Shown here: positions 40,893 through 47,176 of the stretch, in pieces
Layout of the letters: every line of letters begins with the position of its first letter
Numbering within the stretch: position 1 is the stretch's first letter
Source: Edaphobacter sp.
GTDB lineage: Bacteria > Acidobacteriota > Terriglobia > Terriglobales > Acidobacteriaceae
Direction: 5' to 3'
NCBI GenBank assembly: GCA_025462755.1
Contig: JAOAPF010000447.1
Coordinates: 1 to 64,000 of the forward strand
Length of the DNA: 64,000 bases
Notes under the pieces: model-generated
Seen by the model: the letters and a program-made list of their open reading frames with translations, nothing else
What the model was told of the DNA's origin: nothing
Databases searched by the model: none
Position numbers and translations under genes: made by a program

Positions 40893-41345
40893 ATGACGAC
40901 GAACACACGCGAAGAGATAAGGATTGGGCAGTTGGCGATTCGCTACCTGGTCGAAGGCAAGGACTCCGGAGGCTCCGTCGCCATCTTCGAGCTCGACGTC
41001 CCCGCCGGAGCGAAGGTGCCCATCGCGCACAGTCACGACGCCTACGAGGAGACCATCTACGGCATCGAAGGCGTCCTCACCTTCACGCTCGAAGGCCGCA
41101 AAATCGAAGTCGGCCCCGGCGACGCGCTCTGCATCCCTCGCGGAGCGGTCCACCGCTTCGACAATCTTCACTCTGCCAACTCCAGAACGCTCGCAATCGT
41201 CAGTCCCGGCATCCTCAGCCCGGATTACTTCCGCGAAATCGCCGCCGTCGCCAAAGCCGCAGCCACGTCTACACCGCCAGCCCCGCCCGATCCCAAAGCT
41301 CTCGCCGAAGTCATGCGCCGCCACGGCCTCACCCCGGCTCTCTGA
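40893..41345 (+). CDS. Cupin-domain protein
   Basis: MTTNTREEIRIGQLAIRYLVEGKDSGGSVAIFELDVPAGAKVPIAHSHDAYEETIYGIEGVLTFTLEGRKIEVGPGDALCIPRGAVHRFDN. Confidence 0.9.
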   Translation: MTTNTREEIRIGQLAIRYLVEGKDSGGSVAIFELDVPAGAKVPIAHSHDAYEETIYGIEGVLTFTLEGRKIEVGPGDALCIPRGAVHRFDNLHSANSRTLAIVSPGILSPDYFREIAAVAKAAATSTPPAPPDPKALAEVMRRHGLTPAL

Positions 41346-41571
41346 TGCTTCGGGTTGGCGCGTGGGCGCAACTGACCACTCGTCGATCAAGACAATGACA
41401 CTATGAATGGGTCGACCATCGATATCTCGGCGACACCAGCGGTGAAGCTAAGATGATGAGGATGCAACCGTGTGCATTGTTTTGGGCCAGATATGGTCAT
41501 TATCCGACCCGCGGGCAAACTAATGCGGTTTGCTGTTACCCTTCTCCATAACCATTCATGGAGGAGTTGGC

Positions 41572-42048
41572 ATGGAACTAGAGACTGCGTTGAGGCTGGC
41601 GCGTGCAGGTAGATCGTTGCTGTTTTTAGGAGCCGGCTTTTCTTGCGATACACCCAACGCGGGGACTGGAAAAATGCGAAGCGGTCAGGGCTTCTCGAAT
41701 CTCCTTGCCAGCAAGGTTGACCTGCCAGAGGGAACTGGCCTCATGGATACGTCTGAAGCTTACCTTGAACAATATGGGGCAACCGCACTGGTGGGAGAAC
41801 TAATGTTAGAGTTTTCCGCTATAGATTTGCTCCCACATGAAAGATTCATGGCTTCTGTACCGTGGAGACAGATTTATACGACTAACTATGATGATGTGGT
41901 CGAGAAGGCGTATAAGAACCGTGGATTTACCGTCAGATGGATAAATTCGAATATGCCGGTATCTTCGGTATTGCATGGGGAACCAGTCTGTATCCATTTA
42001 AATGGGTCGGTTTTGGGTTTGAACGCGACGCTTCGCAAATCAGACTAA
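41572..42048 (+). CDS. SIR2-like domain protein, N-terminal part (frame 1 of a split gene)
   Basis: SD ggaggag before ATG; ARAGRSLLFLGAGFSCDTPNAGT...WRQIYTTNYDDVVEKAYKNRG...EPVCIHLNGSV; SIR2_2-type motifs (GAGFS, TTNYDD, HLNGS); ends at TAA 42046-42048 in mid-domain. Confidence 0.85.
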   Translation: MELETALRLARAGRSLLFLGAGFSCDTPNAGTGKMRSGQGFSNLLASKVDLPEGTGLMDTSEAYLEQYGATALVGELMLEFSAIDLLPHERFMASVPWRQIYTTNYDDVVEKAYKNRGFTVRWINSNMPVSSVLHGEPVCIHLNGSVLGLNATLRKSD

Positions 42049-43961
42049 CCGATTCTAGCTACCTCACTTCGGCACTAACCGATTCAGACTGGGCCGTTCG
42101 GCTTCGTCAGGATATAGATGCAGCGCAGGCAGTGTTTTTTGTTGGTTATTCCACATACGATATCGATATTGCGAGGTTGCTGAATTCTAAGCCTGCGATT
42201 CGCGAGAAAAGCTTTTTTGTTGTGGGATCTTCACCGACGGCCATCCTAAAACGCCGTATCGAGAAATTTGGTTTCAATACTGAGATGACTGCAGAGGCAT
42301 TTTTCTCGGAAATCACAAAAGATGAATACGCTCCAAAAATCAAAACGTCGCTTCCTGAGATTTGCATTCGAACCTATCAACCAATCCCTGCGAGGATTCC
42401 GTTCGCCGACAGGGATGTCTTTGATCTATTCATGATCGGTCGGCTCTCGGAAGGCTTCGTCTTCGATTCAGTAAGTGGAAAGATAAAGTATGTCTTACAG
42501 CGAAAGGCCCTGGCACGGGTTCTCAATCTTCTAGAAGCTTCTCCCGCGGCGGTAGCAATTCATTCCTCACTAGGCAATGGCAAAACTGTTTTTCTTGACA
42601 TGGTGAAAGCCATTGCAGCTACTTCCGGATTCACAGTCGTCGAATTGGTAAAGCAGCGAGACGGCCTGTTTGAGGAGCTAAATGAAGTCTTGAAAAGAGA
42701 CGGAAAGCTGCTTCTAGTGATCGACAACTATGGTGATTGGCAAGAAGCGATCCGCTTCATCGGCATGCACCATAAAAAGAATATTTCTATTCTTCTCGCG
42801 GCCCGAGCAAGCACCAACGATGTACTGGCTACACGCATTCAAGGATTTTTGAACCTCGGTGAATTGAATGAGGTCTCGCTAGATAAGCTGATCGATAGTG
42901 ATCTGCTTGAAATCGTGCGATTCATGGACACATATGGATTTTGGGGAGACAAGGCTAGTTGGTCAGAAGATCGAAAGCTCAGACATCTTTCGAATAATTG
43001 CGGGAGGGAATGGCACGCTATCCTCATCGAGCTGTTCAAAGCGCCTCAAATCAGAGATCGTCTAGATAGCTTGATCCACGCTATTCAGGCAGAAACTAAT
43101 TTCAATACGATATTGATCGCCATCCTCGTGTTGGCTATCATTGACCACCCTGCAACGAGCGACATCCTAACGGACCTATGCGGTGAAAGCACACTAACAA
43201 TCGGATTTCGCCAGAATGCGGTCATTCGAGAGTTGATCGATTTTGAATCCGATGAAGTAAAGTTGAGGTCCGCTGTGACTGGAGCCTTCATCCTGAAGAG
43301 AGTAGCCGATCCAGAGCTTGTATTGGAAAGCCTGAAACGGATTACTAAAGCGGCGGATCAGGCATCCTTAGTATCTCGTGAATACTTTGCCATCCTCGCT
43401 GCGTTCACTCGTTTTGGTAACGTTCAGAATTTCTTCCCGGAAGAAGACGGTATCTCGTATGTGATTCGGTACTACGAAGCTATGAAAGAACTGAGGCAAT
43501 GTCGTCGCTATCCGCTCTTCTGGCTTCAGTATGCGATTGCCTGCTTATTTCATCATGATTTTGCGAGGGCTGGTACTTACTTCGCATCCGCATACTCCTT
43601 TGCGAAACGGAACAATTTTCGCACTTTCCAGATTGATAATCATTACGCACGGTATCTGTTACTCAAGAGTATTCATGACGGGAATGCTCTGACTGCCATG
43701 GATGCATTTAGGAATGCGCAGAAATTGATAGTCGAACAAATGAAAAATGAACGACTGCACTATCCCTACCGGACTGCACTGTTAGTTGGCGACTGGTTTG
43801 ACGCTTTCGGCGACCAATTAACTGCGGAACAGCTTCAGGAGGTAAAACGCGCTGCGAGCTTCATTGCTGCGCGCATTTCTGAGCTGCCGGAACTGAATCA
43901 GCAACACAGAGACGTTGTTGAATGTTACAGGCGGATGCGGCTGATCATCGATAAGATGTGA
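41937..43961 (+). CDS. Remainder of SIR2 domain + P-loop NTPase (STAND-like) + helical C-terminal region (frame -1 relative to upstream ORF)
   Basis: QIRLTDSSYLTSALTDSDWAVRLRQDIDAAQAVFFVGYSTYDIDIARLL (SIR2 C-terminal half), AAVAIHSSLGNGKTVFLDMVKAI (Walker A-like), KLLLVIDNYGDW (Walker B-like), ISILLAARAS; real reading likely begins near 42010-42036 after the frame change. Confidence 0.85.
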   Translation: MDKFEYAGIFGIAWGTSLYPFKWVGFGFERDASQIRLTDSSYLTSALTDSDWAVRLRQDIDAAQAVFFVGYSTYDIDIARLLNSKPAIREKSFFVVGSSPTAILKRRIEKFGFNTEMTAEAFFSEITKDEYAPKIKTSLPEICIRTYQPIPARIPFADRDVFDLFMIGRLSEGFVFDSVSGKIKYVLQRKALARVLNLLEASPAAVAIHSSLGNGKTVFLDMVKAIAATSGFTVVELVKQRDGLFEELNEVLKRDGKLLLVIDNYGDWQEAIRFIGMHHKKNISILLAARASTNDVLATRIQGFLNLGELNEVSLDKLIDSDLLEIVRFMDTYGFWGDKASWSEDRKLRHLSNNCGREWHAILIELFKAPQIRDRLDSLIHAIQAETNFNTILIAILVLAIIDHPATSDILTDLCGESTLTIGFRQNAVIRELIDFESDEVKLRSAVTGAFILKRVADPELVLESLKRITKAADQASLVSREYFAILAAFTRFGNVQNFFPEEDGISYVIRYYEAMKELRQCRRYPLFWLQYAIACLFHHDFARAGTYFASAYSFAKRNNFRTFQIDNHYARYLLLKSIHDGNALTAMDAFRNAQKLIVEQMKNERLHYPYRTALLVGDWFDAFGDQLTAEQLQEVKRAASFIAARISELPELNQQHRDVVECYRRMRLIIDKM

Positions 43962-44058
43962 TAGTCACCCTTCGTGACAAGAACGAGCGCAGGCTAAACC
44001 CATTCCTCTTTTCTCGTAAGCCGGTTACCGCACGGCTGAAGCCTTTACTTAAGCAACA

Positions 44059-44140
44059 CTATTCCAGAAGCGTTCCCTCTTCGGGGATGACTACAGGCAG
44101 CGCGACAACATTCCCAAAACGGGAATCCCTAAAAATAAAT
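44059..44140 (-). repeat. gyrA-3'-end-like sequence outside gyrA
   Basis: Minus translation ...FRDSRFGNVVALPVVIPEEGTLLE* resembles GyrA tail [23 protein letters not shown]; shares 15-bp aagcgttccctcttc with 44309-44323. Confidence 0.5.
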
Positions 44141-44246
44141 CCGGAAAAAGTGGCGTGTTTTCGAGCCCGAAAAATGACCGTCAACTTACCAGCGTTTCAC
44201 CAGCAACCCACCACAAATTCACCATCGAAAAACCACGTTCTGCACA

Positions 44247-44279
44247 CCCGTTTTTGCCAAAACCCCCAGCAAAAACGGG
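44247..44279 (-). terminator. Hairpin downstream of gyrA
   Basis: CCCGTTTTTGC (44247-44257) / GCAAAAACGGG (44269-44279), 11-bp perfect stem. Confidence 0.5.
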
Positions 44280-44299
44280 GTAAACCGCCCCAGAAAAAA

Positions 44300-47176
44300 T
44301 TACTGCAAAAGCGTTCCCTCTTCCGGTTGGATCTTCGCTTCTTCGGGCGGGATGACGACGGCAGCAGCCACTTTGTCCTGCGGTTCGAGGTCGAGCAGCT
44401 TGACCCCCTGGGTGCTGCGCCCCGCAGCCCGGATGGATTTCGTGTCGATCCGGATGATCTTGCCGAACTGGCTGATGACCATCAGCTCGCTGGTCTCGTC
44501 CACCAGATTGATACTAGACACCTTACCCACCTTCGGCGTCGCCTTCATGTTGATGACGCCCTTGCCGCCGCGCGACTGCAGACGGTACTGATCCACATCC
44601 GTCCGCTTGCCATAACCGCTCTCCGAGACCGAAAGAATGAGGCAAGGCGTAAGCCCAAGCTGCTTGTCCAGCTTCTCCAGCTTCGCCGCCGTCTCTTCCG
44701 AGATCGCCGGCGCGCTCAGCTCCGAAGGATCGCCCGACAACTCAAGCGGAGTAACCGACGCAGAATCTGCAACTTCGTCGATCGCAGCTTCCACCTGATT
44801 CGTCAGTCCTTTCTGCGCCGCCCGCTCCAGCCGCTGCTTATTCCGCGCCTCATTCGAAGGAGTTACCGCCGCCCCAATCAAATAATCGCCCTTGCGCAGC
44901 GAGATCCCGCGGTTCCCCGTAGCCGGACGCCCCATCGGCCGTAAGTCCTGTTCATTGAACCGTATAGCCATGCCATCATGAGTCGCAAGAAAGATGACCT
45001 GCTGCCCATCCGTGACCCGCGCCGTGATCAACTCATCATCCTTCTCGATGTTGATCGCGATGATTCCACGGGACATAACGTTCGAGAAGTCCTTCAGCGC
45101 AGTCTTCTTCACCGTGCCATTCCGCGTAGCAAAAAGGATGTACTTGTTCTCTTCCTCTAAGTCCCTGACAGGAAGGATAGTTACGACCTTCTCCCCAGGC
45201 TGCAGCGCAACCAGCGAGGCCATAGCCTTGCCCTTCCCCGCCGCCCCAATGTCCGGAACCTCATACACCTTAAGCCAGTACACCCGCCCAGTGTTAGTAA
45301 AACAAAGGAGATAAGCGTGAGTCGAGTCAATAATGAGCTGCGCAACAAAGTCCTCTTCACGCGTCTTCATCCCAAGCCGCCCAGTCCCCCCGCGCCTCTG
45401 CTGCCGGTAAGTGGAGATAGGTGTGCGCTTGAGGTAGCCCGTATTCGACACGGTGACCGCAACCTGCTCATCCGTAATAAGATCTTCCAATTGCAGCTCA
45501 GTAGTCTCGTCAATAATTTGCGTGCGGCGAGCATCACCGTACTTATCCCGAATCTCCGTAAGCTCCTTGATAATCACCTTGCGCAGCTTCGCGGGTGAAG
45601 CAAGGATCGACTCGAACTCCGTGATATTGTCGCGAACCTCGGCCAGTTCTTTGAGCAACTCGTCAATGGAAAGCTGTGTAAGCCGATAGAGCTGCAGTTC
45701 CAGGATTGCGTCGATCTGCTTGTACGAGAGAATCAACGTGCCGGTGGCCGAGAAAGTCATGTCCACGCCGTACTTCTTTGGATCCAGCGTGATACCGCGC
45801 AGTTCCGTGCCACGAAGATTGATGCGTTTGCTGGAGAAGTAGCCAAAGAGATTTTCGCGAGCATCCGGTCTTGACGCGGATTGCCGAATGATCTTGATGA
45901 CGTTGTCGAGGTGATCGAGCGAAATCTGGTAACCGAGAAGGATGTGCTCGCGATCACGAGCCTTGCCAAGGAGGAACGCCGTCCGGCGGCGCACGACCTC
46001 GACCCGGTGGTCGAGGAAGGCGCGGATAGCCTGGTCTAACGGGAGTTCCTTCGGCTGGCCATTGTGGACAGCGAGGAAGATCATCGAGAACGACTCCTGC
46101 ATCTGGGTGTGTTTGTGGAGCTGATTGAGGACGATCTGGTGCTCGGCTCCGCGCTTGAGGCCGATGACGATGCGCATGCCGTCGCGGTCGGACTCGTCGC
46201 GGAACTCGTCGCGAGCAATGTCGGTGATGACGCCCTCGTTGACCAGTTCGGCGATCCGCTCGATGAGCTTGGCCTTGTTGACCTGGTAGGGGATCTCCGT
46301 GACGATGATGGCCTGGCGTCCACCCGAGATGTTTTCGATGGAGGCCTTGGCGCGCATCATGAAACGGCCGCGGCCAGTGCGGTAGGTCTGGGCAATGTTC
46401 GTCTTGCCCACAATGTAGCCGCCGGTGGGAAAGTCGGGACCCTTGACATGCTCGAGGCAGAGCTCAAGGTCGGAGCGGGTTTCCGCTTTGTCCTTGGAGA
46501 GAAGCGCGATGCAGGCGTTGGCGACTTCGGTGAGATTGTGAGGCGGAATGTTGGTCGCCATCCCGACGGCGATGCCGCTGCTGCCGTTGATGATGAGGTT
46601 GGGAATGCGCGCCGGGAGGACTGTGGGCTCAAGGGAGGACTCGTCGTAGTTAGGCGCGAAGTCGACGGTGTCGGAGTCGATGTCAGCGAGCATCTCGCCG
46701 GCGAGACGGGTGAGACGGGATTCGGTGTAACGCATCGCCGCGGCGGAGTCGCCATCGACGGAGCCGAAGTTGCCCTGGCCATCGACTAAGAGATAACGAA
46801 GGCTGAAGGGTTGGGCGAGGCGAACCATCGTGTCGTAGATGGCGGAATCGCCGTGGGGATGATAGTTGCCCATGACATGGCCGACGACCTTGGCGGACTT
46901 GGTGTACTTCTTGTTGAACTGGAGGCCCATCTCCTGCATGCCGTAGAGGATGCGGCGGTGAACGGGCTTTAGGCCGTCGCGGACATCGGGCAGAGCGCGG
47001 CCTATGATAACTGACATGGAGTAGTCGAGATAGGACCGGCGCATCTCCTCTTCAATGTTGATGGAGAGCATGAAGGCGGCGCCACGGCCCTGGACGTTGT
47101 TGCCGGGAGGTCCGTCAGGATTTTCGGGAGTATTCGGGGGAGTGAGGGGTAGTTCGGGGTTCTGATCGTCTGCCAT
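44300..47176 (-). CDS. gyrA: DNA gyrase subunit A
   Basis: [63 protein letters not shown]-terminal beta-pinwheel. Confidence 0.98.

Follow-up and report, generated by a model that had tools for sequence, protein, structure and literature searches.

In a window of 64,000 nt, the whole stretch of DNA that was analysed, two overlapping open reading frames beside gyrA appear to represent a stand-alone anti-phage gene of the Avs5 type (SIR2-STAND, EfAvs5-like) in decayed form, a reading to which we assign a probability of about 0.78. Its history is best read as the horizontal acquisition of an Avs5-type gene followed, not long ago, by a 7-nt deletion that inactivated it. As a disrupted representative of a known kind the gene is ordinary; the flank of gyrA in which it lies is the more interesting object.

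One SIR2-STAND gene in two reading frames

The first frame, ORF1 (41572-42048, plus strand), starts at an ATG preceded by a good Shine-Dalgarno sequence (GGAGGAG, 41560-41566, plus strand) and encodes the N-terminal part of a SIR2-like NADase domain, recognized by its GAGFS, TTNYDD and HLNG motifs and by matches to Pfam SIR2_2, to PDB chain 9jap and to an intact relative, L008. Its homology reaches 42006 or slightly beyond, after which about 10 out-of-frame residues lead to a TAA stop at 42046-42048. The second frame, ORF2 (41937-43961, plus strand, stop at 43959-43961), lies in the -1 frame relative to ORF1 and is listed from an ATG at 41937; in alignments nothing in relatives corresponds to its first ~27 codons, which overlap ORF1 in another frame, and the homologous frame resumes from about 42018 to 42033 on. 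From there ORF2 encodes the C-terminal part of SIR2 (42018-42330, plus strand, with SQIRLTDSSY and FFVGYSTYD), a STAND NTPase core (42513-42812, plus strand) and a helical C-terminal region that is presumably the sensor (42813-43958, plus strand), marked by a PxFWLQYA motif with invariant W, Q, Y and A. The NTPase core, which matches Pfam nSTAND_NTPase5 at E 2.7e-6, below the gathering score, contains a P-loop (SLGNGKT, 42567-42587, plus strand) and a Walker B-like segment (VIDNYGDW, 42717-42740, plus strand); LGNGK is kept in all six aligned sequences, and in the relatives L005 and L002 the gathering score is exceeded by nSTAND_NTPase5 and nSTAND3, respectively. A single SIR2_2 domain is thus cut in two, with model positions 2-50 found in ORF1 (E 1e-7) and 51-107 in ORF2 (E 0.007), and the C-terminal region is all-helical in an AlphaFold model of L008. 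These results bear out a sequence-only reading of this DNA, which had described the two frames, the -1 shift between them, the continuation of the SIR2 fold into ORF2 and, behind it, a P-loop NTPase with a helical C-terminus.

The same reading had named the Avs5-type SIR2-STAND family, and here too the evidence agrees. Chain 9jap, according to Foldseek naming the helical structure of EfAvs5 (SIR2-STAND), is the only solved full-length relative, and it is matched in order by the two frames, residues 137-203 by ORF1 (E 1.2e-7) and 213-833 by ORF2; such a two-piece, end-to-end match to one chain is far beyond chance. A profile of 34 family members matches 9jap over its full length (E 1.8e-230), and 9jap also comes first in a Foldseek search (E 3e-42) with the L008 model, a family-alignment-based fold with pLDDT 88 that replaced a single-sequence fold with pLDDT 40. 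EfAvs5 shares with the gene the order of SIR2, STAND NTPase and helical C-terminus over the full length, the stand-alone setting and an Asn-Gly in the HLNG motif in place of the usual sirtuin His-Gly, although the window copy is only ~25% identical to it and is out of frame. The NG variant is present in about half of Avs5 homologues and is needed for defence in PaAvs5-1, and EfAvs5 has been placed in clade 3 of Avs5 (PMC12931631). The PaAvs5/AVAST5 filament (PDB 9nah, 9nc9) has the same SIR2-STAND architecture but is a far weaker sequence match, the same 34-member profile reaching only E 1e-14 with 9nah and only to position 466. DSR2 and ThsA have the SIR2 NADase domain in common with the gene, yet the profile matches them within that domain only, so that the matched part lacks the STAND NTPase and neither DSR2 nor ThsA (Thoeris) is matched beyond SIR2. 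A search of phage records returned no match to the gene. By its N-terminal SIR2 motifs, its middle STAND NTPase with a P-loop and its helical C-terminal sensor region the gene is an Avs5; because the net loss of 7 nt and the stop at 42046-42048 break it up as a continuous translatable gene, we file the window copy as a disrupted, non-active Avs5.

PADLOC's Avs5 profile PDLC02170 matches the window copy at E 0.0037 over part of SIR2 only, and none of the intact relatives L002, L003, L005, L008 and L011 passes E 0.01 with it. The failure extends to L002, whose match to EfAvs5 9jap spans all 849 residues; to judge from these scores, PDLC02170 is blind to the EfAvs5 (9jap) clade, and PADLOC would pass over genes of this kind. 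A PADLOC Avs5 search of eight relative-bearing genomes gave zero matches but, its controls being equally silent, carries no weight.

The lesion in the SIR2 loop

The two frames meet in a loop of 53 nt (42007-42059, plus strand), counted from the Gly codon of HLNG to the Tyr codon of LTDSSY. In relatives this HLNG-LTxSSY loop takes 60 nt, or 20 codons, and its length hardly varies, being 20 residues in 60 of 61 homologues and 19 in the remaining one. The intact relatives occur on both plasmids and chromosomes; across the junction each is a single gene, coding for ~790-850 aa, and the comparison of homologues there, which the sequence-only reading had proposed, brought to light no close homologues that exist as two separate complete proteins. 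This fits its further proposal of one protein of about 795 aa, the ancestral product being ~795-800 aa. The nearest intact relative, L008, from a Syntrophobacteraceae MAG in which it sits on a small 3-kb contig with uncertain host assignment, is an intact single ORF of 798 codons that aligns with the window copy without gaps on both sides of the junction (53-61% identity; residues 1-151 with ORF1, at 53%, and 148-795 with ORF2) and has the GAGFS, TNYD and HLNG motifs at the same positions (20, 104 and 142). It differs from the window copy in being without the 7-nt loss: counted from the ATG to the last codon, its length is 2394 nt, exactly 7 nt above the 2387 nt of the window copy. The affected loop contains a short helix (152-158) in the L008 model.

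The simplest reading of the aligned sequences is therefore a net loss of 7 nt somewhere within the SIR2 loop, as counted in the one assembled sequence. The stop falls 13 codons after the HLNG motif, and the product is at most a 158-aa SIR2 fragment. The sequence-only reading had taken the junction for a one-base change, specifically a single-base deletion, and on this point it has to be revised, given that 7 nt are missing from a loop of otherwise near-constant length. A one-base loss in a loop that was naturally 6 nt shorter would give the same count; we disfavour it, as it needs a loop already two residues short, which is shown by no relative. Just 3' of the lesion, an exact 12-nt repeat, ACTAACCGATTC, occurs at 42044-42055 and 42074-42085, 30 nt apart, and is absent from L008.

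The most serious alternative is that the organism has an intact gene and that the gap of 7 nt is an artefact of sequencing, assembly or strain mixing in the draft genome. The draft consists of 553 contigs with 6% estimated contamination, the remainder of the gene is open and conserved, and the exact repeat (42044, 42074) stands beside the lesion. However, a loss of 7 nt is unlike the usual homopolymer error, and decay is common in the family: a shifted frame, each time at another place, was seen in six or more further relatives, all from different genomes (L009, L014, L033, L049, L053 and L075). We therefore consider an artefact unlikely, though clearly less so than the explanations that follow.

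The sequence-only reading had also offered expression by frameshifting. Here a programmed -1 shift at T TTG GGT (42012-42018) or G GGT TTG (42015-42021) would yield a low level of full protein, and indeed three XXXYYYZ heptamers, a pair of them overlapping each other, stand in phase where ORF1 and ORF2 overlap; neither the remainder of ORF2 nor gyrA has any. The heptamers nevertheless come without the other marks of a programmed site, namely a stimulator and conservation in relatives. In intact relatives the frame continues unshifted through a loop of 20 residues (19 in one); the -1 product would have 18 residues there, a length that no relative shows. A slip at the third heptamer, T TTA AAT, which lies within the HLN codons, would abolish the invariant Gly. 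The downstream RNA is no more stably folded than shuffled sequences (z -0.31), and no stimulatory Shine-Dalgarno sequence is seen. The repeated decay of this Avs5-like gene at different sites likewise argues against a programmed switch at one place. Programmed frameshifting is thus highly improbable. Least probable of all is that the gene has turned into two functional proteins, one with the SIR2 part and one with the STAND and helical parts, since, despite possible start codons in both ORFs, the break runs through the SIR2 fold, the ATG at 41937 has no visible Shine-Dalgarno sequence and a split at this point is seen in no intact relative. Scans for promoters and terminators gave results at chance level. 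Two further members, L064:6004-7452 and L063:5644-7599, match the family from the STAND part on only; ahead of them no SIR2 part was found, and the N-terminus may be degraded or of another kind.

Probable origin and inactivation

With the alternatives weighed, the favoured reading is an acquired Avs5-type gene inactivated by the 7-nt deletion. The GC content of the gene is 47.1%, compared with 57.5% in the contig, and its GC3 is 0.49, compared with 0.75 in gyrA. Among the 60 nearest genomes and 396 of the phylum, no relative was found except one weak partial match (E 6e-4), and the homologues are scattered over many phyla. From the low GC, the lack of relatives nearby and the spread of homologues we infer that the gene arrived by horizontal transfer. 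The lesion is probably young and the gene was presumably functional until recently, because ORF2 runs for 642 codons without a stop and its divergence is concentrated at third positions.

The ancestral state was one reading frame of 798 codons. By analogy with Avs5 work on other proteins, from which both phage sensing and NADase activity are drawn, the helical C-terminal region of the intact relatives would act as the sensor of a phage protein and the STAND NTPase as the driver of assembly (into filaments in EfAvs5), upon which the N-terminal SIR2, with NG for HG, would destroy NAD+ and abort infection. In the window copy, the net loss of 7 nt in the loop after HLNG is followed by the stop, and the remainder behind it is still open and well conserved. 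A 158-aa fragment would lack the end of the SIR2 fold as well as motor and sensor, so this allele should be inactive. The case adds a lineage to those with EfAvs5-type defence genes and shows that such genes often decay by frameshift after acquisition.

The gyrA 3' flank

The gene occupies a variable segment between two neighbouring genes. On the left stands a cupin-domain gene (40893-41345, plus strand; Cupin_2, E 4.6e-15), and in DNA alignment the last base in common with the closest relative, G462, is at ~41338. On the right stands the convergent gyrA (44300-47176, minus strand), named from its protein sequence, whose locus gives DNA matches of ~73-86% identity in 57 of 59 same-genus genomes. 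DNA alignments show that its 3' flank (44110-44299) is kept in relatives, and the right border is sharp at ~44110, ~190 nt from the gyrA stop, with the alignments of seven of eight relatives beginning at 44109-44114. Between this border and the broken gene, at 44055-44085, lies a degenerate 31-nt copy of the gyrA 3' end (44296-44326) that is 81% identical, and 90% identical over a 21-nt core.

Other members of the genus carry other genes in this place. A defence-type gene was found within ~4 kb in 14 of 27 same-genus gyrA 3' flanks, with nine flanks unscanned. The genes comprise a NACHT gene, a kinase, two TIR-like or deoxyribosyltransferase-like genes, PDC-M70, AAA-TIR, two OLD genes, Thoeris, a type II methyltransferase with a partner ORF, a PDC-S08 nucleotidase, two GmrSD genes and a macro-domain gene, the last and the PDC-S08 nucleotidase being weak as defence calls. 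The lowest GC3 per flank is below that of 20 control regions (Mann-Whitney p 4e-7). Among 37 control proteins, PADLOC at 1e-5 matched about five, one of them clearly defence-type (AbiEii). With rough counts, 13 of 27 flanks against 3 of 20 controls, Fisher's test is only suggestive (p 0.03), and with strict PADLOC counts, 10 of 27 against 5 of 20, it is non-significant (p 0.5); selecting ORFs of low GC3 also introduces a bias into this test. In G011 (L105) and G003 (L102), the terminal 120-174 nt of gyrA, up to the stop codon, recur as direct copies 0.6-1.1 kb downstream of gyrA, and these copies resemble what integrative elements targeting the 3' end of a gene would leave as remnants.

We therefore think it somewhat probable that the gyrA 3' end serves in this genus as a site where anti-phage genes are integrated or exchanged, with gyrA 3' ends duplicated in some cases, and that the broken SIR2-STAND gene is a decaying occupant. 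In a narrow search of papers no description of a defence site at gyrA turned up. Since many relatives have a different defence gene there, the site would be a simple place to seek new anti-phage systems. The interval between cupin gene and gyrA is taken up in G462 (L093) by the gene of a NACHT-NCH3 STAND protein. Next to this NACHT gene lies another cupin copy, which is broken in its frame, and 130 nt of the gyrA 3' flank recur ~620 nt away.
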